This document shows positions 4,409-17,845 of a DNA stretch of 17,845 bases, piece after piece. The stretch spans positions 1 to 17,845 of the forward strand of contig JAAXQB010000293.1 of NCBI GenBank assembly GCA_012329085.1, read 5' to 3'. Made by a program: the position numbers and the translations under genes. Numbering within the stretch: the stretch's first letter is position 1; the number at the start of each line of letters is the position of its first letter. The notes below the pieces were generated by a model. It saw nothing but the letters and a program-made list of their open reading frames with translations. It was not told where the DNA came from and did not search any database. The DNA is from Methanosarcinales archaeon (GTDB lineage Archaea > Halobacteriota > Methanosarcinia > Methanosarcinales > Methanosarcinaceae).

Positions 4409-4452
4409 AATTGTATATCCATTGATTTTTTTAGCATAAATTAATTGTATCC

Positions 4453-4468
4453 ATAGTATAAAAATTTT
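4453..4468 (-). promoter_or_regulatory. Candidate TATA region for glyA
   Basis: On the minus strand this reads AAATTTTTATACTATG, an AT-rich box about 50 bp upstream of the glyA ATG. This spacing would give a short leader of roughly 20-30 nt. It abuts the 4473-4493 hairpin, so the repeat element may contribute promoter sequence. The genome-wide AT content makes this a weak call. Confidence 0.25.
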
Positions 4469-4470
4469 GA

Positions 4471-4496
4471 TAGCTCGTTCGGAACGAACGAGCGTT
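4471..4496 (+). repeat. Dispersed hairpin repeat, reference copy (9-bp perfect stem)
   Basis: GCTCGTTCG (4473-4481) pairs perfectly with CGAACGAGC (4485-4493) around a GAA loop. It is flanked by TA on the left and GTT on the right. It is preceded by AAAATTTTGA, like the linker of other copies. This is the cleanest member of a family seen elsewhere in the window with changed but still paired stems. Confidence 0.85.
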
Positions 4497-4581
4497 ATTT
4501 GATTTTTGACTACAATATTAAAATATGCTTCTATTGATATTAAATATATTGCTATGTTTGTGATATTTGATTTATTTCTGT

Positions 4582-4620
4582 ATATAATTTATAAAGTTCG
4601 TTCTCAGAGAGAACGAGCGT
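4582..4620 (+). repeat. Dispersed composite repeat copy: AT half-palindrome plus hairpin
   Basis: ATATAATTTATAAAG leads directly into GTTCGTTCTC (4596-4605), which pairs with GAGAACGAGC (4609-4618) around an AGA loop. There is one G-T pair; all others are Watson-Crick. The stem differs from the 4471 copy by paired substitutions. Confidence 0.75.
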
Positions 4621-4687
4621 TTATTATATACTTAACACTCAAACTTTTCAGAACGATGTTTAAAGAAATTTACAAATTATATACTAT

Positions 4688-4837
4688 TTAAAAAGAAAAT
4701 ATCAATGCAATTATAAAAATAATAAGACCTAATGCAATTAATAAAGGTCTAAGCATAGTTAGAATTGTGATAAAAATATATAATTTTATTCTAAATTCTC
4801 GATTTTTTAAAAGGTTTGTAATATATTTATCTTTCAT
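4688..4837 (-). CDS. Small membrane protein after atpD; possible counterpart of Methanosarcina AhaG
   Basis: A 49-residue protein: a basic N-terminal part (K-D-K-Y-I-T-N-L-L-K-N-R-E-F-R) followed by hydrophobic residues about 19-49, enough for one membrane helix. The start at 4837 is chosen over the longer frame from 4900 because GAGGTG (4845-4850) sits 7 nt upstream of this ATG, one of the best ribosome-binding sites in the window. It lies about 97 bp after atpD on the same strand. The Methanosarcina aha operon ends with a small gene, ahaG, of unknown function in the same place, so positional equivalence is plausible. I cannot confirm sequence homology. Confidence 0.55.
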   Translation of the reverse strand: MKDKYITNLLKNREFRIKLYIFITILTMLRPLLIALGLIIFIIALIFSF

Positions 4838-4933
4838 GATTTTACACCTCTTATATATCTTAATTCTAACATATGATAAAATAAAAAAAATTCCATTCAA
4901 TATACTATTAAAATATCGAATGGACGCAAATAA

Positions 4934-5581
4934 TCAATCTATCGAATCTTTAAGTGCTGATTTTATTTTCTTTCGCCTAAAAAAGTCTTCTCTTTCAAGT
5001 TCTGCAAGATGCATTTTGATATAATTTTGTGTGTTTCCAAGTTTTGGAATTAAAATATTCTCAAGTGCATTAACTCGCCTTTTTGTTTTTTCAATTTCTT
5101 GTGCTAATTTTCGTATAGAACCTTCAGATTCTGCAAGTCTTAATATATTCTTTACAACATTCTCAAAACTGTTTGCCGCCTCATCAAGCTTTGCAGAAGT
5201 GCTTACAAAACTATATCCCCTTTCTTTGCTTTCTCGTAAAAATTCCATTTTTTCAATCAAAGGAACTTTTACACCTGTGATATTTCGAACCTTCATCTCA
5301 ATATCTTTCATTTCATTTACAGAATACGAACTCTCTTCAAGACCTGTATAACCAATTACCATTTGGGCTTCAATTAAAGTCTCAAATGCTTTTTTAATCT
5401 CTATTTCAAGCTCTGCCTTATCTTTTCTGTAATTTTTAATTCTTTTAAAAAACTCCATGATTAAAGCATCTCGCTTCTCTTCAAGTAAATCATGTCCTTT
5501 TTGTGCAAGAATTTTCCTTTTTTTAAGTTTTAAAAGTTCCATTCGAGTGGGACGAACCCCACTCAATATGTTTTTACCCAT
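4934..5581 (-). CDS. atpD: A-type ATP synthase subunit D (central stalk)
   Basis: A 215-residue, almost wholly helical protein. The N-terminal P-T-R-M-E-L-L-K-L-K-K-R and the H-D-L-L-E-E-K-R-D-A-L-I block are the family signature. The C-terminal A-E-L-E-R-E-D-F-F-R-R-K-K-I-K also matches. It forms the coiled-coil axle that turns inside the A3B3 head and links to subunits F and C. The length is normal. It starts 25 bp after atpB, so it is co-transcribed; a weak AAGGT lies upstream of the ATG. Confidence 0.95.
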   Translation of the reverse strand: MGKNILSGVRPTRMELLKLKKRKILAQKGHDLLEEKRDALIMEFFKRIKNYRKDKAELEIEIKKAFETLIEAQMVIGYTGLEESSYSVNEMKDIEMKVRNITGVKVPLIEKMEFLRESKERGYSFVSTSAKLDEAANSFENVVKNILRLAESEGSIRKLAQEIEKTKRRVNALENILIPKLGNTQNYIKMHLAELEREDFFRRKKIKSALKDSID

Positions 5582-5606
5582 ATGTAATTACCTTAAATTC
5601 AACAAT

Positions 5607-7004
5607 CTAATATTTCGAAGGATTATGTGCAGGATGGTATTTTTTAATAAATTCAGGGGAAATTCTTTTAAGTTCGGATTCTGGAAGCATTGACAATAAA
5701 TCCCATGCAAGATCAAGAGTTTCTTCAATTGATCTCCCCACTGTAAAGTCTTGCTTTACAAATTCAAATTCAAACCTATCAGCAAAATCAAGATATTTTC
5801 TATCTATTTCACTTAATGCCTCTGCACCAACTACTGCAACAAGATCTCTTAATTTTCTACCATTTGCATATGCAGAATACATTTGATTATTTACATTACC
5901 ATGATCTTCTCTTGTGTTTTCTTTTCCAATACCACCTTGCATAAGACGGGAAAGGCATGGAAGAACATCAATTGGAGGGTAAATTCCCCTTCTATAAAGG
6001 TCTCTTGAAAGTACAATTTGCCCTTCTGTAATATATCCTGTAAGATCTGGGATTGGGTGTGTAATATCATCATCAGGCATAGTAAGAATTGGAATTTGTG
6101 TAATTGAACCCTTCTTTCCTTTGATTTTACCTGCCCTCTCATAAAGAGATGCAAGATCTGTATACATGTAACCTGGGTATCCTCTTCTTCCTGGCACTTC
6201 TTCTCTTGCTGCTGCAATTTCTCGCAATGCTTCACAATAATTAGTAAGATCTGTAAGAACAACAAGAATATGCATTCCCTTTTCAAATGCAAGATATTCT
6301 GCTGTGGTGAGTGCTAATCTTGGTGTGATAATTCTTTCGATTGCAGGGTCATCTGCGAGATTTAAGAAAATTACCGCATTTTCAAGTGCGCCAGTCTCTT
6401 CAAAATCTTTAATGAAAAAGTTTGCTTCTTCATTGGTAATTCCCATTGCCGCAAATACAACCGCAAACTTATCAGATTCGCCCCTAGCTTTTGCTTGTCT
6501 TGCTATTTGTGCCGCAAGTAAACTATGTGGAAGACCAGACCCTGAAAATATAGGAAGTTTTTGTCCTCTAACAAGAGTCACCATTCCATCAATTGTAGAA
6601 ATTCCAGTTTGAATAAAATCTTGTGGAAATTCTCGTGCAATAGGATTGATTGGATAACCATTGACATCAAGTATCTTTTCAGGAATGATTTCGGGACCTC
6701 CATCAATTGGCTTTGCAGATCCATTAAATGCCCTTCCAAGCATATCTTCGGATACTGCAATTTTCATTGTTTCGCCTGTAAATAGTACTGAGGTAATATC
6801 TGTATCAATATCTCTTGTACCTTCAAATACTTGTACAATAGCTATATCTGTTCTAGCTTCTAACACTTGCCCTCTCCTTCTTTCTCCAGAAGGAAGTTTA
6901 ATTTCTACCACTTCACCGTATGCTACATCTGATATGCCTTCTACAATTATAAGTGGACCACTTACTTTTCTTACTGTGGTATATTCTCGTGATTTCATAA
7001 CCAT
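5607..7004 (-). CDS. atpB: A-type ATP synthase subunit B (non-catalytic)
   Basis: A 465-residue nucleotide-binding-fold subunit that alternates with A in the head. Family landmarks are the E-Y-T-T-V opening, V-S-G-P-L-I, a degenerate P-loop region (F-S-G-S-G-L-P-H-S) with no Lys-Thr, G-I-S-T-I-D-G before it, and [16 protein letters not shown]. The absence of a true P-loop is normal for B. The start is supported by AAAGGAG at 7011-7017, within the last codons of atpA, 6 nt before the ATG. The atpA stop and this ATG are one base apart, so translation is probably coupled. Confidence 0.97.
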
Positions 7005-7005
7005 T

Positions 7006-8772
7006 TTAAGCTCCTTTTATATTTTCAAATTGAGTTGTAAGTTCTTTTTCAATTTCTACATATGCTTTATCAAACTCATCTTCTGGAATTACATTCATTC
7101 TCGATAATTTTTCAGTTGCTTTAACTGCATGTATTGATTCAACAGATGCACCATTTTCTAATGCTTTTGTTGCAAGATCTTTATATTTCAACATAAGCGA
7201 TAGCATTTTATATTGTTTTTCAGGTGAACAGAAAGTATCTACTTCATGGAATGCATTTTGTCTAAGGAAATCTTCTCTTATAATTTTTGCACATTCGAGT
7301 GTAATTTGATCTACTTCTGGAAGTGCATCAGGTCCTACAAGTTGCACAATTTCTTCAAGCTCACTTTCTTTTTGAAGTAAATTCATTGCATTACTTCGCA
7401 TTCTTCCATATTTTTCACCTATTTCAGATTCCCACCATTTTGTTATTTCATCTGCATATAATGAATATGATTGTAACCAATTAATAGATGGAAAATGCCG
7501 CTTGTTTGCAAGATTTGCGTCCAATGCCCAAAATACTTTTACAATTCTAAGAGTATTTTGTGTGACAGGTTCAGAGAAATCCCCCCCAGGTGGACTTACT
7601 GCACCAATTACAGTAATAGAGCCCACTGAATCTTGATTTCCAATTACTTGTACTCGTCCAGCCCGTTCATAGAATTGTGCTAAACGAGATGAAAGATATG
7701 CAGGATATCCTTCTTCACCAGGCATTTCTTCAAGTCTTCCTGAAATTTCACGCATAGCTTCTGCCCATCGTGAAGTTGAATCTGCCATCAATGCAACATC
7801 ATAACCCATGTCTCTGTAATATTCTGCTATTGCCATTCCAGTATATACGCTCGCATCTCTTGCAGCCACAGGCATATTACTAGTATTTGCAATAAGAATA
7901 GTACGATTCATTAAAGGCTCGCCTGTTTTTGGATCTTCAAGTTCTGGGAACTCTCTAAGTACATCAGTCATTTCATTTCCTCGCTCCCCGCATCCAATAT
8001 ACACAATAATGTCTGCATTAGACCATTTTGCTAATAATTGTTGAACAACAGTTTTTCCTGAACCAAATGGTCCTGGAATTGCAGAAGTTCCACCTTTTGG
8101 AAGTGTGAATAACATATCAATTACTCTTTGACCTGTAATTAATGGAATGGATGGATTAAGCTTCTTTTGGTATGGTCTTGCATCTCGTACAGGCCATCGT
8201 TGAAGCATTGAAATATCTATGGTTTTTCCATCCATGTCTATTTTTACAATAGGTTCTTCAATTGTAAAACTTCCCTTTTGCTCAATACCTACAATCTTTC
8301 CAGATATGCCTGGTGGAACCATTACTTTATGAGTGAGTATTTTTGTTTCAGGGACAGTTCCAAGTACATCACCTTGATTTACTATATCTCCTAATTTTGC
8401 AGTAGCTGTAAAATCCCATTTCACATCTCTTTCAAGGGCTGCTACTTCAACTCCTCTCTCAATATAGTCTTCGACTTGCTCTTGTATTAATTCAAGTGGT
8501 CTTTGAATACCATCATAAATTTTTGAAAGAAGTCCAGGACCTAATTCAACTGATAATGGCATGTTTGTTCTAACAACAGGTTCTCCTGGCATGATACCAC
8601 CTGTTTCTTCATACACTTGAATTGTTGCTACATCTTCTTCAAGTTTAATAATTTCTCCGACAAGCCTTTCATTTCCAATTTTGACAAGCTCATACATTTT
8701 TGCGCCTGTCATGTTGTCTGCCAAGACAACAGGACCTATAATTTTTATTATAACGCCTTGTTTTTCTGTCAT
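7006..8772 (-). CDS. atpA: A-type ATP synthase subunit A (catalytic)
   Basis: A 588-residue catalytic subunit that makes or hydrolyses ATP at the A3B3 interfaces. Visible features: a beta-barrel N-terminus, the A-type-specific non-homologous insertion (about 115-190), Walker A G-P-F-G-S-G-K-T at 234-241, the G-C-G-E-R-G-N-E block at 260-267, and Walker B with [10 protein letters not shown] near 327-336. The P-F-G-S loop is the A-type form. There is no intein. GGAG at 8778-8781 lies 5 nt before the ATG. Unlike the other junctions, it is separated from atpF by a toxin-antitoxin pair, and it has its own TATA candidate upstream. Confidence 0.97.
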
Positions 8773-8825
8773 ATTTACTCCATTTAAATTTTTTTTTATT
8801 TAGTACATCTTTGTTAAGAGAATGT

Positions 8826-8848
8826 ATCTTATATATTTATTTATAAAA
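8826..8848 (-). promoter_or_regulatory. Candidate internal promoter (TATA region) for atpA-atpB-atpD
   Basis: The minus strand reads TTATAAATAAATATATAAG here, 55-75 bp upstream of the atpA ATG. A start site about 25 nt downstream would give a leader of roughly 30 nt carrying the GGAG site. Since a toxin-antitoxin pair separates atpF from atpA, an independent promoter would keep the head subunits expressed. AT richness limits certainty. Confidence 0.35.
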
Positions 8849-8955
8849 TTTTTCGATTACACATTTATCCATTCTAAATAAATTATATAAACATTTAATA
8901 ACTTATTTTTAAGAGAATGAGTATATTTTTTATTTTTTATACCTCTATCAAAAAT

Positions 8956-9321
8956 TTACAAATCTCTGATATTTTTGATTGTAACAATAGATTTTACTTT
9001 CTTTACCATTTCATTATCTACACTAACTAAAAAAATATCAAATTCTTTTGCAATATTTGCTGCTTCGTTTGCTCTAATTGAATCTATATCTAAAAAATTT
9101 ATTGTGTTTAGATTTTGCAAATTATTTTTAACCCTTTCAGCGAGAGATGTTGATTTTGTTCTTCTTTTTATTGCTGCAACGACTTCTATTAAAACTATAT
9201 AAGGCACTATGGTAATAAATTCACCGTCTTTTACCCTTTTAAGTAATCTTTTACAGTTTTCATGATTTTCTTCCTGCTCTCTCAAAGCAGCAACAATAAC
9301 AGAACTGTCTAATGTAATAAT
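8956..9321 (-). pseudogene. VapC-like PIN-domain toxin, probably decayed
   Basis: PIN-domain ribonuclease toxin remnant. Read from 9321, the frame gives I-I-T-L-D-S-S-V-I-V-A-A-L, the first PIN motif with its Asp. It then has L-I-E-V-V-A (second acidic position) and L-V-S-V-D-N-E (last Asp). Three oddities stand out. There is no ATG, GTG or TTG before the first motif; the first standard start is TTG at 9285, which would drop the first catalytic Asp. An ATG at 9331-9329 is one base out of frame and would give M-V-T then the motif if one base were removed. The segment between A-A-N-I-A-K-E-F and D-I-F-L-V-S, which in VapC usually carries an Asp-Ala pair, is missing, so the chain is about 20 residues short. 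It follows the antitoxin in the same frame, past one TAA. An ATT start and a live but altered protein is the alternative. Confidence 0.6.
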
Positions 9322-9324
9322 ATG

Positions 9325-9552
9325 TTACCATCTCTTTTCTCTTTGATCTCTTATCTCTCCGATAGCAGTTTCTCCCCTCCATGTCTTTGAAATTTCCTTT
9401 GATGCAGACATTAAATCATTCCATGCTTGTTCTGCTTTTTGCTCATCCTTTATATTAAGTTCTATAAATATTTTTTTTATTTGAATTAATTCATGTGTTA
9501 CACGATTCAAACGCCCTTTTATTTCTATAAGTTCTTTTTGCATTTTCATCAT
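9325..9552 (-). CDS. VapB-like antitoxin
   Basis: A 75-residue protein: a charged, probably coiled-coil N-terminal half (E-L-I-E-I-K-G-R-L-N-R-V-T-H-E-L) and a C-terminal toxin-binding-type tail, A-W-N-D-L-M-S-A-S-K-E-I-S-K-T-W then A-I-G-E-I-R-D-Q-R-E-K-R-W. The W-x-x-L...S-x-E-I-S...E-I-R-x-Q-R pattern is typical of archaeal VapB partners of PIN toxins. It is directly followed by the PIN remnant on the same strand. The pair is inserted between atpF and atpA. A perfect 11-bp inverted repeat lies just upstream (9569-9607) and could be its operator. Confidence 0.65.
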   Translation of the reverse strand: MMKMQKELIEIKGRLNRVTHELIQIKKIFIELNIKDEQKAEQAWNDLMSASKEISKTWRGETAIGEIRDQREKRW

Positions 9553-9568
9553 AATTATTCCTACTAAA

Positions 9569-9607
9569 TTTACAAATTAAATTTTTCATTAATATGTAAT
9601 TTGTAAA
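9569..9607. repeat. Perfect 11-bp inverted repeat upstream of vapB
   Basis: TTTACAAATTA (9569-9579) and TAATTTGTAAA (9597-9607), separated by 17 nt and 16 bp upstream of the antitoxin ATG. It may be an autoregulatory operator, as VapBC complexes often bind palindromes in their promoters. The right arm also resembles the AT-palindrome half of the dispersed repeat family, so a repeat origin is equally possible. Confidence 0.5.
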
Positions 9608-9695
9608 AATTGTATCTTTAATACATATTCATTAAAATCAAGTGAAAAAATTTAAGATATTATTTACTCATATAGACATTATAGTTCATATTCAA

Positions 9696-10001
9696 TTAAA
9701 CACCAATCGCCCTTCTAATTAATGAATCCATAATATCTTCTTTTTCAATTGGACCTGACTTTCCAGATATTTCCATAATTACAGGATATACTTCTTTTCT
9801 TTCTTGCAATTTATCTATAAAAGCTCGTGCTTTTTCTGCAAAACTATCTTGAATAATTAACACGCCTATTTCTGCATCTTGTATATATTCAGTAATTGCC
9901 GATTTAACTTCTTCTGGTGTTTCCACAATCTTTGATTTTTTAACCCCTGCGAGAGAAAAACCAATTGCCATTTGTTTATCACCGATTATCGCAAACTTCA
10001 T
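9696..10001 (-). CDS. atpF: A-type ATP synthase subunit F (central stalk)
   Basis: A 101-residue Rossmann-like protein. The opening M-K-F-A-I-I-G-D-K...G-F-S-L-A-G-V, the E-I-G-V-L-I-I strand and the P-V-I-M-E-I-S-G-K-S-G-P-I segment are family hallmarks. It binds subunit D in the central stalk. Its ATG overlaps the atpC stop (ATGA), so translation is coupled to atpC. In related clusters atpA follows directly; here 143 bp and a toxin-antitoxin pair intervene. Confidence 0.93.
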   Translation of the reverse strand: MKFAIIGDKQMAIGFSLAGVKKSKIVETPEEVKSAITEYIQDAEIGVLIIQDSFAEKARAFIDKLQERKEVYPVIMEISGKSGPIEKEDIMDSLIRRAIGV

Positions 10002-11194
10002 GCATATACCTCATCGTGTGTGATAAGAATTGATTTTATTGCAGAAGTAGGAACTGATTCTGCAAGTCCAGATAATATTGCTTTAAGATTTCTAATTTCA
10101 TATTGTTTTGCAACTATAAAATTAATCATAGGTCCAACTCCAAGATTGTGCATAGTGGAAAGATTTAATACAAATTCAAGTAAAAATTTATCAAGTTCAG
10201 ATTCAAATGGATATGTACTATCTGTTGATTCAAAATCTTGTATTTTTCTTTCAAGACATGCACCATATATCGTATTTTTAAGATTTGAAATCAATTCTAC
10301 CATAGTTTTAGATTCTGATAGTTCTTTTATACGATCCATTGATATTGATCCACCTGGCAATATATACTTTCCAATAATTAGAGAATCAAAATTATCTTTC
10401 TTTGCTCTAAGAAGCATTTTTATATTTGAAATATCCGAATATATTTTAACAAAACTCTTAATTGGATGTGACACATCATCATCTATTTGCCCTACTGATT
10501 TTCTAATACAATCGAATGTGAATGTGTCAAGTGCAAGCTCAAAAGGTAGCGTGGATTTAAGTTTTGTATATTCTGAAAATGCGTTAGACAAAACTTCAAC
10601 ATATTGTGTTTTTTGTAACATTAAAATTGCATCTTCTATGCTTTCTGATTCTGCAATATCATCTATAATTCGATCAGATATAACACCCGTTGGAATTAAT
10701 CTATTTCTAATATCGCTTGCTGAAAGTTTCATCTTTTTTGATTTAAGTGCAATTTTAATTTGTTCGGATTCCAATATTGATAGATACGCGTTAAAAAAGG
10801 GCTTTACTTTTTCTGGCGAAGAAGATACAATATTTTCGCACTCATTTACATAAATGGAATTTAATGCTCTTTCAAGTTTTTCAGGATTTTTTATTTCAGA
10901 TAGGTTAATGTCATATCCAGCATCATTTATTTTATTTGCTGCATCAGTCACACCTTTTGCATCCAAAATTATATTTATTTTATTTGAGTACACAAAAGGC
11001 ACCCCTATTGCTTTTACTCTTGTATTTGAATATACGAAATAAGAAATATTCATAATTGATTTTGAATAATTCAATATAACAATTATAAATACAGATATTG
11101 AAATTGTAAGTGCTATAACAATAGCAATAAATTCTATTGATGTAAGCCCAAAAGATTTAATAAGGTCATCTACATATGGGGATATATACGCCAC
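9998..11194 (-). CDS. atpC: A-type ATP synthase subunit C with N-terminal membrane helix
   Basis: A 398-residue subunit of the AC39/C type that forms the socket joining the central stalk to the c-ring. Helical repeats follow F-V-Y-S-N-T-R-V-K-A (about 53-62), which aligns with the usual Y-A-Y-x-N-A-R-V start of the family; the tail G-P-M-I-N-F-I-V-A-K-Q-Y-E-I-R-N-L-K-A-I-L also fits. The approximately 50 residues before that include a hydrophobic run at about 20-42, enough for one membrane helix. The start is GTG, supported by GGAGGG at 11204-11209, 9 nt upstream, so the extension is probably translated. The gene begins 3 bp after the atpE stop and its stop overlaps atpF. Similar extensions may exist in other methanogen lineages; I cannot check. 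Confidence 0.88.
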   Translation of the reverse strand: MAYISPYVDDLIKSFGLTSIEFIAIVIALTISISVFIIVILNYSKSIMNISYFVYSNTRVKAIGVPFVYSNKINIILDAKGVTDAANKINDAGYDINLSEIKNPEKLERALNSIYVNECENIVSSSPEKVKPFFNAYLSILESEQIKIALKSKKMKLSASDIRNRLIPTGVISDRIIDDIAESESIEDAILMLQKTQYVEVLSNAFSEYTKLKSTLPFELALDTFTFDCIRKSVGQIDDDVSHPIKSFVKIYSDISNIKMLLRAKKDNFDSLIIGKYILPGGSISMDRIKELSESKTMVELISNLKNTIYGACLERKIQDFESTDSTYPFESELDKFLLEFVLNLSTMHNLGVGPMINFIVAKQYEIRNLKAILSGLAESVPTSAIKSILITHDEVYA

Positions 11195-11197
11195 AAT

Positions 11198-11797
11198 CTA
11201 ATTCCCTCCATATAAAATTTTTGACACCCCATATCTAATTTCATTCTCTTTACGCCTAATAATTTCTTCAAACGTATTATTTACAAACATTGAATCATCT
11301 TTTGATTTGATAATTATGCCACCAATTGAATCGATGTGATTTTTAGATACTTTAATAGACAATAATTTACCAGACATGTTAGAGGCAATTTTTTTAACAA
11401 TTGGTGCATCTTTTTTATTACATTCCACTATAACATCTGTAAGTTCCATCATATCCATGCCATTTTGGATATATTTCACAAGTATGTCTTCGTATGCGTA
11501 TGTTGTTGGAATTTCCTTTAATTGTAAAAGTGATTCATTAAAACAGTCAGATATTAACTCACTCTTTGTATCCATAACAATTTTTTTAGAATTCATTCGT
11601 GCAACCGATTGTATTCGGTTGCTAAGTGCATCAGATTCAAAATTGCCTTTTAGTAATATCTCGTTGTATATTTCAAGACCTTTTTTTTCAGAATCTTTTT
11701 TGATTTCTTTTATTTGATCTATTGTATTAGATTTTATAGATTCTATTTTTTCATTTGCACTTTTTTCAATTTCTTCTATAATTTTATCAACACTCAT
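11198..11797 (-). CDS. atpE: A-type ATP synthase subunit E (peripheral stalk)
   Basis: A 199-residue protein: a long charged coiled coil (about 1-85) and a globular C-terminal domain with S-I-G-G-I-I-I-K-S near 155-162 and F-E-E-I-I-R-R-K-E-N-E-I-R close to the end, as in vATP-synt_E. It pairs with subunit H to form the peripheral stalks that hold the head. The length is normal. It ends with TAG three bases before the atpC GTG and starts 46 bp after atpK. Confidence 0.9.
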   Translation of the reverse strand: MSVDKIIEEIEKSANEKIESIKSNTIDQIKEIKKDSEKKGLEIYNEILLKGNFESDALSNRIQSVARMNSKKIVMDTKSELISDCFNESLLQLKEIPTTYAYEDILVKYIQNGMDMMELTDVIVECNKKDAPIVKKIASNMSGKLLSIKVSKNHIDSIGGIIIKSKDDSMFVNNTFEEIIRRKENEIRYGVSKILYGGN

Positions 11798-11843
11798 TAA
11801 TTTAAATCTCCTTATTATTCATATTTAAATTTCAATTGATTTA

Positions 11844-12809
11844 TCAAAGTAAACCAATTCCTGACATGATTAAGATTGCAACTAATAAACCAAATATTGC
11901 AAAAGTTTCAGACATGACAGAGAGAATAAGTCCCCTCCCCATTACAGCTGGATTTCTAATTATGGCACCTATTGCAGAGCTTGCCGTGATTCCTTGCCCA
12001 ATACCTGACAATCCAGCAAGACCTACTGCAAGTCCACAGCCAATTGCTGCAAATCCAATAGCAACCTCTTCTCTGAGATCTCCATAAAACATACCAGTAA
12101 ATGCCATAAGTAATATAGCAACTAACAGTCCGTAAATTGCTTGTGTTTCTGGAAGTACAGAGAACACCATACTTCGACCCATTGCTTTACTGTCTTCTGC
12201 TGTTGCACCAACACCTGCTGCTGATGCAATTCCTTGTCCAATACCTGATAGACCTGCAAGACCTATTGCAAGACCGCATCCAATTGCCACAAATCCAATT
12301 GCTGCATTGTCAATGAACTCTCCCTCAAACATGCCAGTAAATGCCATAAGTAAGATAGCAACTAACAGTCCGTAAATTGCTTGTGTTTCTGGAAGTACAG
12401 AGAACACCATACTTCGACCCATTGCATCACTATCTTCAGCTGTTGCACCAATACCTGCTGCCGATGCAATTCCTTGCCCAATAGCAGAAAATCCTGCAAG
12501 ACCTACTGCAAGACCTGCCCCTATGGATACCAATCCTATTGATACTGGAACATCTGCTAGATTGCCCCCTCCAAGAAATCCTGTAAACATTAATATTAAG
12601 ATGGCAGTTAAAAGTCCATATATACCTTGTGTTTGCGGAAGTGCCTGAAACACAATTGCTGTACCAAATTTATCTGGATTTTCAGCAATAGCTCCAACAC
12701 CTGCGGATCCTGTAATACCAACACCAATACCTGAACCAATTGCTGTTAGCCCAATTGCTAAACCTGCTCCAATTGCAGCGAGAACTGCTCCAATGCTAAT
12801 TTCAATCAT
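11844..12809 (-). CDS. atpK: A-type ATP synthase rotor subunit K (c), four-hairpin form
   Basis: A 321-residue proteolipid with eight predicted membrane helices, i.e. four fused hairpins of about 80 residues. The ion-binding position in each second helix reads L-P-Q59-T-Q (hairpin 1), L-P-E141-T-Q, L-P-E221-T-Q and M-S-E301-T-F, so three carboxylates per chain and Gln in the first hairpin. The first helix of hairpins 2-4 carries G-Q-G (Q112, Q192, Q272), where hairpin 1 has Val30. A Gln in helix 1 with Glu-Thr in helix 2 is the Na+-site pattern known from Enterococcus hirae NtpK. Methanocaldococcus jannaschii has three hairpins with Gln in the first; typical Methanosarcina c subunits are single hairpins. 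Hairpins 2 and 3 are nearly identical in DNA. AAGGA lies 11 nt before the ATG. Confidence 0.96.
   Translation of the reverse strand: MIEISIGAVLAAIGAGLAIGLTAIGSGIGVGITGSAGVGAIAENPDKFGTAIVFQALPQTQGIYGLLTAILILMFTGFLGGGNLADVPVSIGLVSIGAGLAVGLAGFSAIGQGIASAAGIGATAEDSDAMGRSMVFSVLPETQAIYGLLVAILLMAFTGMFEGEFIDNAAIGFVAIGCGLAIGLAGLSGIGQGIASAAGVGATAEDSKAMGRSMVFSVLPETQAIYGLLVAILLMAFTGMFYGDLREEVAIGFAAIGCGLAVGLAGLSGIGQGITASSAIGAIIRNPAVMGRGLILSVMSETFAIFGLLVAILIMSGIGLL
12115..12425 (-). repeat. Two 71-bp perfect direct copies inside atpK, 240 bp apart
   Basis: Positions 12115-12185 and 12355-12425 are identical base for base, including third codon positions, and encode the second helix of hairpins 3 and 2. Identity falls off gradually on both sides. 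The exact 240-bp period equals one 80-residue hairpin. This points to a recent duplication or continuing gene conversion between hairpins 2 and 3. Confidence 0.9.
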
Positions 12810-12837
12810 AATTTATTATATCCTTATTTTTATTTAT

Positions 12838-13018
12838 ATTAGTATATAATTTATAAAAATTATATACTGGGAGAAAAATTTCAATTCCTCGAATTATTTT
12901 ATTAATATTGTTATATGTTTTATATTATTTTTTGTAGCTCATTCAGAATGAATGAGTTTAAAAAAATCTTTGATTTTTAATAGCATATAATTTATAAAAA
13001 TTATGTACTAAGAGAAGA
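12838..13018. repeat. Repeat cluster between atpI and atpK
   Basis: Three parts of the dispersed repeat family lie in the atpI-atpK gap. First is a perfect 12-bp AT palindrome, AGTATATAATTT (12841-12852) with AAATTATATACT (12857-12868), followed by GGGAGAAAAATTT. Second is the hairpin CTCATTCA (12938-12945) with TGAATGAG (12949-12956) around GAA. Third is an imperfect palindrome at 12982-13009, followed by AAGAGAAGATTTT and the end of atpI. In a transcript through the operon these would form three stem-loops between the two membrane-motor genes. Confidence 0.8.
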
Positions 13019-13020
13019 TT

Positions 13021-15012
13021 TTATTTTTTCGTGTATCGCCTTATTATTTTAAATGGTGAGAATTCCACTCCTCCTCCAACATAGAATTGTCCGAAAAATT
13101 CAACATATTGCAAACGAAGTGAATGTATAAATGCACCAAGTGATTGCAATATAAAATTAAATAAATGTCCAACTATAAAGATGAAAACACCACCAATTAT
13201 CAGAATAGGATGTACATCAGAAACCATTCGAGTTAAGAAATTTATTGTCATGGCAATTCCACTAGTTGCAAGTGCTAATGCAAGAATTCTTGCGTAAGAT
13301 AACCAATTACCAAGGTACCCTGTAAGATCAAATGCAGCAAGAGGTCCATTTTTAATAAAAAGAATAGTTGATCCAAATACAACTCCTACTAACGATATAT
13401 TAACAATCATTGGATCTATTTGTGCCCATCCAAAGAAAACAAGCATCAATATAAATGCAAATGGTTGTATTATAAACCATGCAACAGGACCACATATAAT
13501 TTCTTTATAATTCTTTCTTTGAATATCTTGGTATGAAGAAATCACAAGCCCAAGATTTAAATGAATCAATCCGATTGCAAGTGAAAGAATAAGAATGATA
13601 ATAGGATACTCAAGAGGGTCTAAAAATGGAACTTCTATGCCTAATAATGCATAGGGCACATTTTCTATGCCTAAAAATATATCGGGTGCATTTCCAAAAT
13701 ACCCGCCTTGCAATATTCCAAATACAATTGCTGAAAATCCAATTGACATTAAAACAACACTCATATCTTTTGCAGATTTTTCAATTTTTCCAATTCCGCG
13801 ATAAAGTGCAAATCCAAATACTGCGATGAGAATTCCATATATTGCATCCCCTAACATGAGCCCAAAAAACATTACAATAAGTGGTGCAATAATAAAAGTT
13901 GGATCTATTTCGTCATATTTTGGACGACTAAACATCGTTGTTAAAAATTCAAAGGGTTGAAGAATTTTTGGATTGTTGTATTTAATTGGAACTTTTGAAA
14001 CATCATTAGATGATGGTTTATTAAATTCAACAACTACATGTCCGTCTGTTGCTTGTTCACACAAATTACTAAATTCATTCACATCTTTTGAATCAATCCA
14101 ACACTCTATTACAGAAACATGATCTGTATTTCCAAAATTAGAAAAACAATCCATTCGGTCCCATTCAATTTCAAGCTCTTCTTTTAAAACTAATAATTTT
14201 TCATTCCATTCTTTGTAAAGTGATTCTAATTCATTAACAAGTTTTAATTTTTTTGAATTAAATTCATCAATTTCTGAAGTAAGGATATTAATTGCATCGA
14301 TTGGATTTGCATCTATTTTACGAATATTTAATTCATTAAAAAGATTGCTTCGTACAATCGTATCTATTTCTTTTGAATTTTCAATTAGCGTTGCAATAAC
14401 TATGATGTGCTTATTTTCAACAAATTCTTTTAATATAATAAGCTCTTCAATGCCTTCTTGACTGATTGCATTATTAAATTCATCATATTCAGTATTTTCA
14501 ACAGTACCTGCAACAACATATAAATAATCTGATTTTCCAACAGAAGATAATTTAAAATCAAATTGTGTTAATAATGAAATATTATCTTTTTGAATATTTG
14601 CTGCATTAATTGAATCTTCTAATTTAGAAAGATTTTCATTAATTTCAAGTACGACATCTACCTTTTTTAGGGTAGTTTCAATTTCATCAAAAAGTTCAGT
14701 ATAATTGTCTCTTGATACTTGTGTTCTGTTGATTATACTTGGAAAAAATATACTTTTTAATACCCCATCTTTTTCTACATGCATTTCATTTAATATATTT
14801 AATACACGGTCAAGATTCATTTTATATTCAGTACATTTTCCAAGTGCGTTGTGAGATTCCCCAATATTTAAAATCTCATTAAGATTTTCTGTAGATTCTT
14901 TTATGTTTGAAATATCTGCAAGTCCAGATTCATGTAGGGCATAAATTAGATTTTCCTGATATTTTTTATGAACTATTATAGATGCGCTATTCATTGATGC
15001 TGGAAACATCAT
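13021..15012 (-). CDS. atpI: A-type ATP synthase subunit I (a; stator and ion channel)
   Basis: A 663-residue protein. The N-terminal half (about 1-375) is the cytoplasmic alpha/beta and coiled-coil arm that binds the peripheral stalks. The C-terminal half (about 380-640) holds several membrane helices. The channel arginine is in L-S-Y-A-R575-I-L-A-L-A-L-A. A second conserved arginine is in F-I-H-S-L-R633-L-Q-Y-V-E-F-F-G. G-D-A-I-Y-G near 400 and G-G-G-V-E-F-S-P-F at the end are also family features. The length is normal. Its ATG overlaps the atpH stop (ATGA). It is followed by a 211-bp repeat-filled gap before atpK. Confidence 0.96.
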   Translation of the reverse strand: MMFPASMNSASIIVHKKYQENLIYALHESGLADISNIKESTENLNEILNIGESHNALGKCTEYKMNLDRVLNILNEMHVEKDGVLKSIFFPSIINRTQVSRDNYTELFDEIETTLKKVDVVLEINENLSKLEDSINAANIQKDNISLLTQFDFKLSSVGKSDYLYVVAGTVENTEYDEFNNAISQEGIEELIILKEFVENKHIIVIATLIENSKEIDTIVRSNLFNELNIRKIDANPIDAINILTSEIDEFNSKKLKLVNELESLYKEWNEKLLVLKEELEIEWDRMDCFSNFGNTDHVSVIECWIDSKDVNEFSNLCEQATDGHVVVEFNKPSSNDVSKVPIKYNNPKILQPFEFLTTMFSRPKYDEIDPTFIIAPLIVMFFGLMLGDAIYGILIAVFGFALYRGIGKIEKSAKDMSVVLMSIGFSAIVFGILQGGYFGNAPDIFLGIENVPYALLGIEVPFLDPLEYPIIILILSLAIGLIHLNLGLVISSYQDIQRKNYKEIICGPVAWFIIQPFAFILMLVFFGWAQIDPMIVNISLVGVVFGSTILFIKNGPLAAFDLTGYLGNWLSYARILALALATSGIAMTINFLTRMVSDVHPILIIGGVFIFIVGHLFNFILQSLGAFIHSLRLQYVEFFGQFYVGGGVEFSPFKIIRRYTKK

Positions 15013-15329
15013 TGTAAATCGCCTGCCACTTCTTTTACAATATATCTAACAGCGTCTCCAAATTTTTGCTTAGTATGCATCCGTATAGTTTCTGCCTCTT
15101 CATGCCCTTTATTTTTTATAATTTCAGCTTTTTTTAATGCCGTTTGTTCAGCCTTTTCTTTTTTAATTCGAACTATTTCATTTGCTTCTTTTATTTTTTG
15201 CGAAATAAATTCATCAGCGTTTTGTTTTTCTAATTTTATTTCATTATTGGCAGATTCCTTGGTTTGCTTTTCCAATTCTATTGCTTTGGATTCCGCCTCT
15301 TTAATTTGTTCAATTTCACTTTGAGCCAT
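15009..15329 (-). CDS. atpH: A-type ATP synthase subunit H (peripheral stalk)
   Basis: A 106-residue, highly charged coiled coil with Ala/Glu/Lys-rich heptads throughout and a C-terminal R-Y-I-V-K-E-V-A tail, typical of the archaeal H subunit that dimerises with E. It is the first gene of the cluster. A GAGGG ribosome-binding site lies near 15340-15344. Translation appears coupled to atpI through an ATGA overlap. Confidence 0.88.
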   Translation of the reverse strand: MAQSEIEQIKEAESKAIELEKQTKESANNEIKLEKQNADEFISQKIKEANEIVRIKKEKAEQTALKKAEIIKNKGHEEAETIRMHTKQKFGDAVRYIVKEVAGDLQ

Positions 15330-15394
15330 TTAAAAAAACCCTCTTTATATTTTTTATACTGTTTCGAAATAATACTCATTTTTTTTAAAATCAC

Positions 15395-15411
15395 ATTCTT
15401 AGAAAAAGAAT
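15395..15411. repeat. Degenerate short hairpin upstream of atpH
   Basis: ATTCTT (15395-15400) and AAGAAT (15406-15411) around AGAAA, followed by ATGCGTTA, which resembles the GAGCGTTA right border of the dispersed hairpin. Probably a decayed copy. Confidence 0.35.
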
Positions 15412-15424
15412 ATGCGTTAATGAG

Positions 15425-15497
15425 CAAACATCAATTCTCTTTGAGAATTAGCTGTTAAATTTTTCCATCTATATATAATTTTACAAATTACATATGA
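15425..15497 (-). repeat. Complete composite repeat upstream of atpH
   Basis: Read on the minus strand, in order: an AT palindrome (ATATGTAATTT/AAAATTATATAT), a linker AGATGGAAAAATTTAAC, then AGCT followed by AATTCTC (15439-15433, paired with GAGAATT) around an AAA loop, ending GATGTT. This matches, block for block, the plus-strand copy at 17672-17741. It lies about 100 bp upstream of the atpH ATG in the same orientation as the operon, so it may be in the leader. Confidence 0.65.
15471..15478 (-). promoter_or_regulatory. Candidate TATA box for the ATP synthase operon
   Basis: TTATATAT on the minus strand, about 145 bp upstream of atpH. A start about 25 nt downstream would put the hairpin of the composite repeat at the 5' end of the leader. 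A second AT box (TATAAAAAATATAAAG, about 15344-15359) is too close to the ATG to fit a leader carrying the GAGGG site. Weak call. Confidence 0.22.
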
Positions 15498-15923
15498 TAA
15501 AAAATTTCCGTTTTACATATCCATATATATTATGCATGTTTTAAAAATCTTTTAATTTCGTTTTAATATACACATCAAATTAAAATCTAAAATTTAAAAT
15601 TATGCATTAAATTCCCTTTTTAACTATGCACCTCAGTTAGAGTATGTTTTAATCATGATGCATATTTATATATCCATCGTATTTAAAATCTTTGCAGTAT
15701 TGATTTAATATTGGATAACTATAAGGAATAGTTTATTTATATATAAACTTTCGTTTTTATTCACTATATTAGTGTAAAAAAAACAATCGTTCATTATTGA
15801 TTATGATATATAATTTCAATGCAAAAAATGAAATATTTGCGTAAGTTGATTAAACAAATTGTTGCATTGTAAATGCTGTAGATGCAATGACTTGGTTAGA
15901 AGAAATGTCGATGATTAATAAAT
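15498..15923. other. Intergenic region, no gene seen
   Basis: AT-rich DNA between the atpH leader and the end of the third pilin gene. I see no tRNA-like or GC-rich island, no frame with codon-like content, and only short AT palindromes. Confidence 0.6.
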
Positions 15924-16490
15924 TTATTTTTGAATTTTCTTTAAATTCCCATTTATCAGCTGAGGTTTTATTTGTGTTGTCCATAGATATGCGACTGTAA
16001 TAGTTGAATTTGGTCTTTGAGCACTCCTACTATCATACCCATTCAAGTTTAATATTTCACCAACTGACCAATATCCATCTGTTAATAGCATAGAATTTCT
16101 CGTGTCGTAATGTTCAATAGTTCCATCTTTCCCATTACTATGGGTATAATCATAGGTGACTATGATAGGGACTTCTCCGCTGTGTCTATATCCATTTCCA
16201 CTCCAATATGTCTGCCCATGACCTTGCATAATTATCTTGGTTTCATTTAAATAAAGCATATCGCCACTCCTATGTAATAGTTTAACTGAATTATTTTCCA
16301 GATTTACACCCATTCCTCCTTCAGAATCATTTACAGATATAATTACATACGGTGGAATGTCAGGAAGTGCAAATCCCCCAACCATTACCATTATTGTGCC
16401 AGCAATAACTATTGTTGCTACCACCATTAATACAATTCCAATAATATGGGAAATTGCAATTTCATTCATGTAAAAATATTTATTTTTCAT
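15924..16490 (-). CDS. Archaeal type IV pilin-like protein (Pilin_N domain)
   Basis: A 188-residue protein with an archaeal pilin N-terminus: M-N-E-I-A-I-S-H-I-I-G-I-V-L-M-V then a hydrophobic helix to about residue 39, equivalent to the A-V-S-P-V-I-G pattern of DUF1628 pilins. The globular part has K-L-L-H-R-S-G-D near 70-77 and Y-W-S-V-G-E-I-L-N-L near 140-149, both usual in this family. The first Met is used here; Met8 (16469) is also possible, and neither has a clear ribosome-binding site. An AT box about 20 bp upstream suggests a very short leader. It is monocistronic, divergent from aIF5A. It could be a structural or minor pilin. Confidence 0.8.
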   Translation of the reverse strand: MKNKYFYMNEIAISHIIGIVLMVVATIVIAGTIMVMVGGFALPDIPPYVIISVNDSEGGMGVNLENNSVKLLHRSGDMLYLNETKIIMQGHGQTYWSGNGYRHSGEVPIIVTYDYTHSNGKDGTIEHYDTRNSMLLTDGYWSVGEILNLNGYDSRSAQRPNSTITVAYLWTTQIKPQLINGNLKKIQK

Positions 16491-16551
16491 AGATTGAACA
16501 TATTGTTTTATATTAAAAATAATTTAAATTATCATCCAATTTACATCTATA

Positions 16552-16625
16552 AATATGTAACAGATATATAGGTATATTTTATGAATAGAATATGTAACAG
16601 ACATATGAGTATAGTTGATGAATAT
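16552..16625. repeat. Two tandem 37-bp units
   Basis: Units 16552-16588 and 16589-16625 match at 31 of 37 positions, both opening with AATATGTAACAGA and containing ATGAATA near the end. They lie 62-135 bp upstream of the pilin start and could be paired regulator sites, though a simple duplication is as likely. Confidence 0.7.
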
Positions 16626-16927
16626 ATTTGTTATTCAATTGATTGAATTTTAATCAAACAATTTAATGCCATAAAACACTTTAAATAGTTTTATAAGTTT
16701 ATTATCTTTGATTCTAATGCATTAACTATATATAAGTAAAGGTTCATTATAATTATTCAAATTGAAATATTATTTAAACTATGCAATTATCAATATTGTG
16801 AAGTAGTACTTATTCTATTTAAGAATGGACTATTATGAATTTCTCTTTACACATAATACAAAAATTTTGCTATTTTATAAAGCACATATTTTTTTAAGGT
16901 GTGTGTATTTACAGATTATACATTAAC

Positions 16928-16975
16928 GCTCATTCGTTTTGAATGAACTATCGAAAAATTAAAATTTTCTCTCAG
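16928..16975 (-). repeat. Dispersed composite repeat copy, inverted
   Basis: On the minus strand: AGAGAAAATTTTAATTTTTC, then GATA, then GTTCATTC (16948-16941) pairing with GAATGAGC (16935-16928) around AAAAC, ending GTTAATG. One G-T pair; the rest are Watson-Crick. Same block order as the plus-strand copies. Confidence 0.7.
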
Positions 16976-17012
16976 CATTTAATACAGAAATCCGGAGATT
17001 TTATAGAACATA

Positions 17013-17027
17013 TTTCTCTTTGAGAAA
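17013..17027. repeat. Small hairpin upstream of aIF5A
   Basis: TTTCTC (17013-17018) and GAGAAA (17022-17027) around TTT. On the minus strand the loop is AAA, as in the copy at 15433-15449, suggesting a shortened member of the hairpin family. It is about 50 bp upstream of the aIF5A start. Confidence 0.45.
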
Positions 17028-17075
17028 CATGTATTCTACAAATTATATGCTATAAAAAAAAGGAAATATACTTAC

Positions 17076-17459
17076 ATGAAGCAACAAGTAGAAGTTAAAA
17101 CACTTAAAGAAGGCAAATACATGATAATAGATGAAGAGCCATGCATTATAAAAAATTTCTCAAAATCAAAACCGGGAAAACATGGATCTGCAAAAGCAAG
17201 AATTGACGCAATTGGAATATTTGACGGTCAAAAAAGATCTTTTGTAGGTTCAGTATCAACAAAAGTATATGCACCACTTGTAGAAAGAAAAAATGCACAA
17301 GTTTTATCCATAAATAATAATATTGCACAGCTTATGGATAAAGAAGACTTTTCAATATTTGAACTTACAATTCAAGATGAATATAAAGATAGAGTAAAAG
17401 AAGGAGAGGACACATCATACATTACTTCAATGGGTAAATCAAAAATTGATTTACGATAA
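17076..17459 (+). CDS. eif5A: Translation initiation factor 5A (aIF5A)
   Basis: A 127-residue protein that relieves ribosome stalling and must carry a hypusine or deoxyhypusine residue. The modified lysine is K35 in K-S-K-P-G-K35-H-G-S-A-K-A-R, an exact family loop. The N-terminal SH3-like domain (1-68) and C-terminal OB-fold (about 70-127) are both present, with normal length. AAGGA at 17060-17064 is 11 nt before the ATG. It is transcribed away from the pilin gene and followed by repeats rather than another gene within the window. Confidence 0.96.
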   Translation: MKQQVEVKTLKEGKYMIIDEEPCIIKNFSKSKPGKHGSAKARIDAIGIFDGQKRSFVGSVSTKVYAPLVERKNAQVLSINNNIAQLMDKEDFSIFELTIQDEYKDRVKEGEDTSYITSMGKSKIDLR

Positions 17460-17510
17460 ATTTAAAATATAATTTATTATTTATTAATGTTATGCAAAAA
17501 GATTTTTTTA

Positions 17511-17570
17511 TAGCTCGTTTGAAACAAACGATCGTTAGTATATAACTTATAGAATTATATATTGAGGGAA
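17511..17570 (+). repeat. Hairpin followed by AT palindrome and purine-rich linker
   Basis: TCGTTTG (17515-17521) pairs with CAAACGA (17525-17531) around AAA, with left border TAGC and right border TCGTTAG. An AT palindrome follows at 17538-17564 (TATATAACTT/AATTATATA), then TTGAGGGAAATTTTTAAT. The stem has T-A pairs where the 4471 copy has C-G pairs. The AT palindrome and what follows resemble 12841-12900 closely. Confidence 0.7.
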
Positions 17571-17671
17571 ATTTTTAATTTCTCGAATTTATTTTTATTT
17601 AATTGCATTCAATATGAATGTGTTTTATCAACATGAATAAGTAATAATGCATAACATTAGTTATCTATATT

Positions 17672-17741
17672 AGCAGATAATTTATAAAATTATCTGTTAA
17701 GAGAAAATTTTAATAGCTCATTTTCGAAGAGGATGGGCGTT
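17672..17741 (+). repeat. Composite repeat, clearest plus-strand full copy
   Basis: A palindrome, CAGATAATTT (17674-17683) with AAATTATCTG (17687-17696), is followed by the linker TTAAGAGAAAATTTTAATA. A hairpin comes next: GCTCATTTTC (17716-17725) with GAGGATGGGC (17729-17738) around GAA, then GTT. All ten hairpin positions pair if G-T is allowed. It directly precedes the 13-bp array. Confidence 0.75.
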
Positions 17742-17742
17742 T

Positions 17743-17845
17743 GCTCGTTCGGAAAGCTCATTCGGAAAGCTCATTCGGAAAGCTCATTCGGAAAGCTCAT
17801 TCGGAAAGCTCATTCGGAAAGCTCATTCGGAAAGCTCATTCGGAA
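17743..17845 (+). repeat. 13-bp tandem array, eight units, running off the window
   Basis: Units start at 17743, 17756, 17769, 17782, 17795, 17808, 17821 and 17834. The unit is GCTCATTCGGAAA; the first has G for A at position 5, and the last is cut by the window end. The unit equals the left arm plus loop of the dispersed hairpin, so it looks like an amplified half-element. There are no spacers, so it is not a CRISPR. Confidence 0.95.

Follow-up and report, generated by a model that had tools for sequence, protein, structure and literature searches.

Hairpins between the genes of an archaeal ATP synthase locus: probable copies, fragments and nested mosaics of miniature mobile double-hairpin elements

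The locus and its hairpins

The window, i.e. the whole 17,845-nt stretch of DNA analysed here, belongs to an archaeon of 30% GC overall (25-38% per kb along the window) and carries the archaeal A1Ao ATP synthase operon (minus strand), together with genes for serine hydroxymethyltransferase and eIF5A and type IV pilin-like genes. Its spacers contain many hairpins, which we regard, with a probability of about 0.77, as copies, fragments and nested mosaics of miniature non-coding mobile double-hairpin elements resembling the repetitive extragenic palindromes (REP) and the Rickettsia palindromic elements (RPE). Their basic unit would comprise an AT hairpin, 2-4 nt and a linker hairpin (about 50 nt in all; W-type in the list), and a separate family of GC hairpins would often have been inserted in or beside it. 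The features are listed below, with the evidence in brackets; R1 is the covariance model of the window copies (9 training rows).

4440-4500, plus strand: linker and GC hairpin (4473-4493, perfect 9 bp, loop GAA, 3' GTT), AT palindrome missing (hairpin scan; R1 E 1.7e-8, training row)
4571-4640, plus strand: AT palindrome, split, with GC hairpin 4596-4618 nested in its loop (R1 E 0.0014, untrained)
4657-4693, minus strand: half AT palindrome, a fragment (repeat comparison)
12810-13020, no strand: atpK-atpI spacer, 211 nt, mostly unit sequence, aligned part 12839-13023 (spacer alignment, locus comparison)
12835-12900, plus strand: AT hairpin (12841-12868) and linker, W-type unit (R1 E 3.5e-7, training row; spacer alignment)
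12929-12961, plus strand: GC hairpin (12937-12957) (hairpin scan, repeat comparison)
12976-13023, plus strand: AT hairpin and linker, extending to the atpI stop codon (13021-13023) (R1 E 1.7e-6, training row; spacer alignment)
15392-15414, plus strand: degenerate hairpin followed by GCGTTAATG, which also follows GC hairpin 16928 (alignment z 2.2, alone not significant)
15423-15502, minus strand: complete composite of AT hairpin, linker and GC hairpin (R1 E 5.7e-11, training row)
16921-16991, minus strand: right arm of an AT palindrome, linker and GC hairpin (16928-16948) (R1 E 2.3e-6, training row)
17008-17059, minus strand: left arm (17033-17059) of the AT palindrome of 16921-16991, and the hairpin in its loop (17008-17032) (hairpin scan)
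17513-17533, plus strand: GC hairpin, loop AAA (hairpin scan; training row, R1 only E 0.056)
17535-17587, plus strand: AT hairpin and linker hairpin, W-type; best window match to a copy in the related genome G294 (17539-17587, 42/49 nt) (R1 E 8e-8, training row)
17604-17622, plus strand: hairpin, loop ATA (hairpin placement)
17666-17745, plus strand: complete composite of AT hairpin (17670-17700), linker and GC hairpin (17716-17738) (R1 E 1.8e-14, training row)
17743-17845, plus strand: 13-nt tandem array of GCTCATTCGGAAA, 7.9 copies, corresponding to half a GC hairpin and running off the window end (repeat scan)

The GCTCATTCGGAAA array at the window end may mark the point where the assembly stopped.

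Window hairpins exceed chance and covary

A sequence-only reading of the window had reported hairpins at these places, whose stems differ between copies and yet stay paired; both claims were borne out. A mechanical scan found the hairpins at 4473-4493, 4596-4618, 12841-12868, 12936-12958, 12985-13006, 15433-15449, 15471-15495, 16928-16948, 17008-17032, 17513-17533 and 17670-17700, while the hairpin at 17716-17738, which has G-U pairs, was located separately. The intergenic regions hold 8 hairpins of at least 8 pairs with at least 2 G/C in the stem, against 1.07 expected by chance (maximum of 4 in 30 shuffles), and perfect stems of at least 8 pairs with a 3-nt loop number 6 against 0.0 expected (3 shuffles). 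When the 3' arms of the 7 core GC hairpins were permuted, the observed pairing was matched in 12 of 5040 arrangements with G-U allowed and in 24 of 5040 with Watson-Crick pairs only. In the alignment A2 (9 rows), 91.2% of the cells are paired, 5 pairs are changed on both sides and the covariation score is 0.165. None of 500 shuffles matched either the percentage paired or the covariation score; the pair count, the cell count and the number of further pair types were matched by 6, 2 and 10 of 500, respectively. It is confirmed that the window hairpins are real and exceed chance, and that their arms covary.

Two other claims of that reading hold in part. The order AT palindrome-linker-GC hairpin, presented as fixed, is complete in two copies only (15502-15423 on the minus strand and 17666-17745 on the plus strand; their arms show 76% complementarity over 72 nt). 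The remaining ones are fragments or nested mosaics, with a hairpin within the loop of a split AT palindrome at 4571-4640 and 16921-17059, and they form part of a longer repeat, of about 180 nt. When spacers were aligned with each other (25 shuffles per pair), z was 17.0 for 12839-13023 and 17535-17712, 8.5 for 16985-16809 (minus) and 17552-17737, and 7.1 for 4465-4617 and 16956-16809 (minus). Likewise, the short loop said to be always purine is so in all 7 core hairpins, but not at 17604 (ATA) or 17566-17584 (TTT).

The covariation of the window hairpins would also be expected of a structured RNA, or of an RNA-processing or termination signal, that is inherited at a fixed site and whose pairing is preserved because selection acts on the transcript. 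Consistent with such an RNA, G-U cells outnumber A-C cells (8 versus 2) in the 7 core hairpins read in one sense orientation, a weak hint that one strand folds as a single strand. Moreover, the region 17500-17745 folds better in its sense strand (-56.7 kcal/mol, z -4.71) than in the complement (-37.3, z -3.16). Against it, the orientation of the copies relative to the flanking genes varies, an inconsistency that also tells against the RNA-processing signal or nucleoid site suggested earlier. The Rfam covariance models gave no match in the window up to E = 1.

The window's unit in related genomes

The AtpI protein of the window is 51% identical to that of G237, a single-contig genome of 1.07 Mb from the sample of the window's phylum (which we take to be Halobacteriota), and at most 45% identical to those of the order of G001 (called Methanomicrobiales here). 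The AtpI tree places the window with G237 and P0003, with moderate support (82/81). The order of G237, with 11 genomes of 0.7-1.6 Mb, comprises the nearest relatives of the window among the genomes compared; it includes G294 (about 45% GC), a sister species of G237 with about 90% nucleotide identity.

The 211 nt between the atpI stop and the atpK start of the window, mostly element sequence, contrast with 13 other loci, where atpK-like sequence starts from 7 nt before to 24 nt after the end of the atpI stop. The spacer measures -10 to 23 nt in the 8 loci with an ATG-fixed start, and in the remaining 5 the atpK-like sequence starts 3-4 nt before the end of the stop. Judged from these sequences, the element in the window's spacer looks inserted.

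Model R1 recovered 8 of its 9 training rows at E ≤7e-5 and one only at E 0.056, and it picked up the untrained copy at 4571. In the 11-genome order, its top matches fall in G294. There, a copy of the window's unit (locus L069) consists of two hairpins, TATATAATTT tta AAATTATGTA, CTCA, GAGAAATT ttt AATTTCTC, GAA, and is identical to window 17539-17587 at 42 of 49 positions. Its Smith-Waterman score against the window spacers is 94.1 (shuffled maximum 55.3; 0/300), and that of a second G294 site (L066, 7765-7865) is 89.1 (shuffled maximum 65.2; 0/300); two control stretches scored at background. Since G294 has about 45% GC, a shared AT bias does not explain this match. The ATTATATACTTAACACTC string of the window copy 4571-4640 reappears in L066 with one change. 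At this site, 98 nt of related modules in G294 correspond to 34 nt of other sequence in G237, between flanks that are 88-90% identical.

The order of G001 was rejected as the home of the window's unit: its hairpin pattern occurs in 0 of 232 genomes, and a blastn search with a 106-nt element in 6 genomes gave a best E of 0.015. R1 found nothing in 7 of these genomes at E 1. A viral, plasmid or phage origin was also set aside, with no exact-pattern match in viral contigs and no match in plasmids; the phages gave only 6 matches, all weak and AT-rich, to Prevotella phages (E 9e-3), and these were taken as chance.

The A-B family of double hairpins

In these relatives, the commonest double hairpin, which would be a sister family of the window's unit, is a 51-nt unit designated A-B. 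It comprises hairpin A (4 bp, a conserved mismatch, 6 bp and a 3-nt loop), the dinucleotide TC, and hairpin B (9 bp and a 3-nt loop). Alignment A5, with seventeen copies taken from G237, G294 and G284, has no gap over its 55 columns. In hairpin A, all 170 cells are paired, 6 of the 10 pairs change on both sides and none on one side only, and the internal mismatch is A-A in 16 copies and A-G in one. The lack of one-sided changes fits either a strict need for a perfect stem or the renewal of one arm from the other. Hairpin A has no G-U cell: its pattern of change is unlike slow drift via G-U and does not repeat the G-U surplus of the window hairpins, which counts against a structured RNA. For the whole A-B structure, 96.8% of the cells are paired, double-change cells number 56 versus a shuffled mean of 18.6 (0/500), and four of the five covariation measures were equalled by none of 500 shuffles. 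The copies start with T-GTTG or T-GTCG and most end with CA; unlike a miniature inverted-repeat transposable element, A-B shows no inverted repeat linking its two ends in A5, apart from a single T-A pair (columns 3/53, 16 of 17 rows).

In G237, a covariance model of A-B, R2, gave 83 rows at a limit of E = 1. We carried 33 of them (E up to 1.7e-4; 14 of them in the training set of R2), corresponding to 29 sites, and dropped the 50 weaker ones, which include antisense echoes and single hairpins. In a sample of 392 genomes of the phylum, 14 match R2 at E 0.01. Strong matches (best E <1e-16) are confined to seven genomes, all from the 11-genome order (G237, G255, G278, G284, G289, G294 and G304); the next best E is 3.5e-6. 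Copy number is uneven, with at least 14 in G237 and at least 3 in G284 in this same search, G237 reaching 33 when searched fully.

The double-hairpin design seems to reach beyond this order. In the order of G001, 7 of 232 genomes have R2 matches at E 0.001, with 1-4 each. Seven of the eight loci fetched from it (L199-L204 and L206) show a 49-nt double hairpin whose first hairpin is shorter (GTTGCAC-nnnnn-GTGCAAC or a near variant); TG or TC comes next, followed by CCTCAGATC-nnn-GATCTGGGG or a near variant and by CA. The eighth, L205, lacks the core looked for. In G406, a different first hairpin precedes a similar second hairpin.

Tandem clusters of two or more hairpins with 3-nt loops number 6 in 264 kb of G294 (3 in the shuffle) and 16 in 480 kb of G237 (2 in the shuffle), whereas 180 kb of Methanomicrobiales have none; 5-nt-loop clusters are equally many (11 in G294 and 17 in G237).

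Exact 13-mer counts in parts of G237 and G294 revealed little besides a CRISPR-like repeat (GGTCTGATTTTAA ... ATAGTGGGATTGAAAT) of G237, located on contig C1 within 1-400000 or 885475-965474, whose 13-mers occur in 12-13 copies.

Presence and absence between sister species

Whole-unit insertion of the A-B family was demonstrated by comparing G237 with G294. The look-up in G294 covered contigs C1-C20, i.e. 264 kb of about 700 kb, where 6 of the 29 G237 sites could be compared, and none of the six is occupied in G294. One of them, G237 101702, is a hot spot rather than a clean empty site: G294 shows other hairpin remnants there, and a copy of its own (L065, 15102-15158) lies some 80 nt away from the junction. 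Conversely, of 9 G294 sites looked up in G237, 7 have a collinear orthologue. Two are cleanly absent from G237: the 51 nt at L080 5292 (hairpin B and another hairpin), and the A-B copy at L082 6324. The latter (near 6330) leaves a gap of 45 nt according to the aligner and of 51 nt according to the conserved ends of the element, the 6-nt difference lying in AT-rich flank. The 34 nt of other sequence at L066 were noted above (7768); at L064 15778, G237 has a shorter stretch with remnants; and at L064 6342, L065 15102 and L082 5782 it has other sequence, partly other hairpin arrays. No target duplication is evident at L080 5292 and L082 6330, where the placement of the ends is ambiguous by a few bases.

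These empty sites already weaken the structured-RNA interpretation, which implies inheritance in place, and the sharing of 0 of 6 comparable sites by sister species likewise disfavours a processing signal or nucleoid site. They also bear on a purely local turnover, in which slippage and template switching in AT-rich spacers would create hairpins on the spot and bring their stems to perfect pairing. Such turnover would yield the 13-nt array of half a hairpin, the AT-rich mosaics and the perfect arms of the hairpin A family. We nevertheless find it improbable, for the following reasons. First, the 49-nt unit also occurs in a relative of 45% GC. Second, the 51-nt unit is found in 7 genomes, and at many places in several of them. 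Third, there are insertions with empty sites.

A 171-nt length difference with G294 was observed near position 401768 of G237 contig C1 (L104), where tandem units with GAATTCATTCGG are reminiscent of the 13-nt array of the window.

Insertions in protein genes and tRNAs

Seven of the 29 G237 sites (8207, 10982, 189892, 326755, 389893, 425009 and 770247) lie inside open reading frames (ORFs) with homologues on both sides, and all are in frame, a 51-nt insert being 17 codons long. By our reading of the site contexts, none of the 29 splits a conserved gene out of frame. The insertion at 770247 lies in a 959-aa ORF whose G294 homologue is 87% identical and lacks it, and that at 425009 adds 17 aa in the protein alignment; the ORF at 189892 presumably encodes a family B DNA polymerase. 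In G294, L080 5292 adds exactly 17 residues to an ORF that is 86% identical to that of G237 and that we take to be ribosomal protein uL10. The in-frame insertions use more than one reading frame and affect genes of unrelated function. In G284, an element at 128223 lies in an open frame, whose homologue shows no clean gap. Net insertions were taken from protein alignments rather than from tblastx lengths, which are not multiples of 3 at several sites (for example 55 at 425009 and 146 at 189892); the latter were set aside because the flank matches lie in neighbouring genes or outside the ORF. One more G237 site falls in the intron of tRNA-Tyr, which ARAGORN finds to be 141 nt long in G237 and 25 nt in G294; in this copy, two further hairpins are nested in hairpin A. 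The remaining 21 sites are intergenic, lie at the ends of genes, or fall in ORFs that have no informative homologues.

The copies in frame within protein genes are a further point against a structured RNA, which we now consider unlikely. The tRNA-Tyr copy, together with a second tRNA-like gene differing by a 52-nt double hairpin, could suggest that the units are spliced mini-introns of the bulge-helix-bulge type, removed from mRNA and tRNA. However, all 7 interior copies of G237 and the L080 insertion of G294 keep the frame open, which splicing would not require, and tRNA-Tyr of G294 has its 25-nt intron without the element. We therefore hold mini-introns to be highly improbable.

The second tRNA-like gene, at 115782 of G237 contig C1, differs from G294 by the 52-nt double hairpin; its assignment as tRNA-Leu was dropped, ARAGORN giving only a doubtful tRNA-Phe, and it is kept as a lead only. 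At 161734 of the same contig, a tRNA-like gene has a 39-nt intron relative to G294, where tRNA-Met is intron-less. Both sites may represent the gain or loss of tRNA introns between the sisters.

Mobilising enzymes and known systems

In view of the subterminal hairpins, the nesting and the lack of evident target duplication, the elements could depend on a Y1 (TnpA/RAYT) transposase for their movement, as members of the IS200/IS605-dependent REP or PATE class. Y1_Tnp (PF01797) indeed occurs in 3 of the 11 genomes of the order (G289, G278 and G246), the search being positive in 5 of 14 control genomes. However, it was not found in G237, the single-contig genome with the most copies found, nor in G294, G284, G255 and G304, its absence from the incomplete G294 carrying less weight. 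Furthermore, the A-B ends lack the GTAG and CGTC tetranucleotides of the REP super-families, a CGTC string occurring only within another hairpin (CCGTCTAAATC). Such a dependence consequently appears rather unlikely. Reverse transcriptase was found in none of the 11 genomes.

The BOX elements of pneumococcus are modular mosaics of hairpin subunits in varying numbers, a likeness to the window arrays; their subunit sequences and sizes would differ from those of the elements described here. RPE are described as palindromic units of about 150 bp that lie in frame inside unrelated protein genes and encode a conserved peptide (PMC10969869, PMC3733652). By that description, A-B resembles them as a small palindrome in frame in unrelated genes, but differs from them in its 51-nt length, its two separate hairpins, the use of more than one reading frame and its archaeal host, as well as in its occurrence in a tRNA intron and its nesting. 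The REP, including the GTAG- and CGTC-tagged palindromes, are reported as dimers (some 1-2 bp apart), with alternative complementary stem bases and some copies inside ORFs, and the CGTC class seems to have no dedicated transposase (PMC3733652). Similarly to REP dimers, A-B combines short paired palindromes with complementary stem changes and some copies in ORFs; unlike them, it ends without the tags, and its two hairpins form a fixed unit that has a single conserved mismatch. In the main text of that source, 'archaea' appears twice, and neither 'archaeal' nor 'Methano' appears (PMC3733652). In fungal and sponge mitochondria, double, triple and tandem hairpins with conserved stems and variable loops are described as invading spacers, rRNA and nad genes without frameshift (PMC2800124). 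A-B is like the mitochondrial double hairpins in architecture only, two adjacent stable hairpins forming one mobile unit, and unlike them it is archaeal rather than organellar and has covarying stems. The open-licence literature searched covers REP dimers and intragenic REPs in bacteria, RPEs in Rickettsia, miniature inverted-repeat transposable elements in a few archaeal genera and mitochondrial hairpins; it yielded no report of a double-hairpin element in archaea.

Interpretation

For A-B, we observed presence and absence between sister species, in-frame insertion, nesting, covariation and uneven copy number. We infer that the window's own family moves as A-B does, from one presence/absence site of related modules (G294 versus G237) and from the expanded atpI-atpK spacer. 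The sequence-only reading had listed a non-autonomous mobile element among its possibilities, and that proposal is now favoured by the finding of the unit in a related genome, by the empty sites of the sister family, and by copies in either orientation at unrelated places. We propose that the units would insert as whole DNA pieces into spacers, the tRNA intron, the loops of older hairpins and sometimes protein genes, through an enzyme supplied in trans that may read the hairpins. The stems would stay paired if mobility needs pairing and if one arm can be repaired from the other. Both of these also fit the compensatory changes, so that the structural constraint claimed earlier is real, while an RNA function need not follow from it.

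Several results weigh against this mobile-element interpretation. First, R1 has a best match of only E 0.0067 in the 11 closer genomes and none in the 232 genomes of G001's order at E 0.05, and R2 finds no A-B copy in the window up to E = 1. Second, no collinear orthologue exists in G237 for L069, the best G294 copy of the window's unit, which slightly lowers our confidence. Third, hairpin excess is not confined to one class: G237 as a whole exceeds its shuffles at every loop size tested (stems of at least 9 pairs: loop 3, 108/27; loop 4, 60/29; loop 5, 83/28; loop 6, 59/30), the excess being greatest at 3 nt; the control Methanomicrobiales show a mild 3-nt-loop excess (9 versus 3.3, stems of at least 8 pairs); and the triloop excess of G284 is small (34 versus 22). 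Fourth, the further pair types of A5 are not above shuffles (439/500). Fifth, G294 and G237 differ by 141 gaps of at least 12 nt, of which 54 are clean, and only 6 of these 54 contain a hairpin of at least 8 pairs. Sixth, no mobilising enzyme was found in a search limited to two families, Y1 and reverse transcriptase.

A bolder version of the mobile-element interpretation, which we regard as doubtful, would see in these units a selfish archaeal hairpin free of transposase and reverse transcriptase. The cell's own enzymes for processing RNA or DNA hairpins would move it, its arms would renew each other, and it would prefer the loops of hairpins and of structured RNA genes, build nested hairpins and repeatedly add 17-codon modules to conserved proteins. 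Regarding structured RNA loops, the tRNA intron was observed; a possible tRNA D-loop is a lead only.

In-frame selfish palindromes are already known in Rickettsia and some other bacteria, and double hairpins in mitochondria. Two archaeal sisters of about 90% identity sharing 0 of 6 sites offer a system for asking how elements move without a visible transposase, how tRNA introns grow and how conserved proteins tolerate inserts of 17 residues. Intergenic hairpins that covary strongly are not necessarily RNA genes.

Other observations in the window

Between atpA and atpF (8956-9551), the window carries a PIN-domain gene (PF01850, E 1e-5) and a small upstream ORF without a Pfam match, possibly a toxin-antitoxin pair inside the ATP synthase operon. 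AtpK (11844-12809; 321 aa) is a multi-hairpin c subunit with 240-nt internal repeats, and its match in G237 spans the full length.

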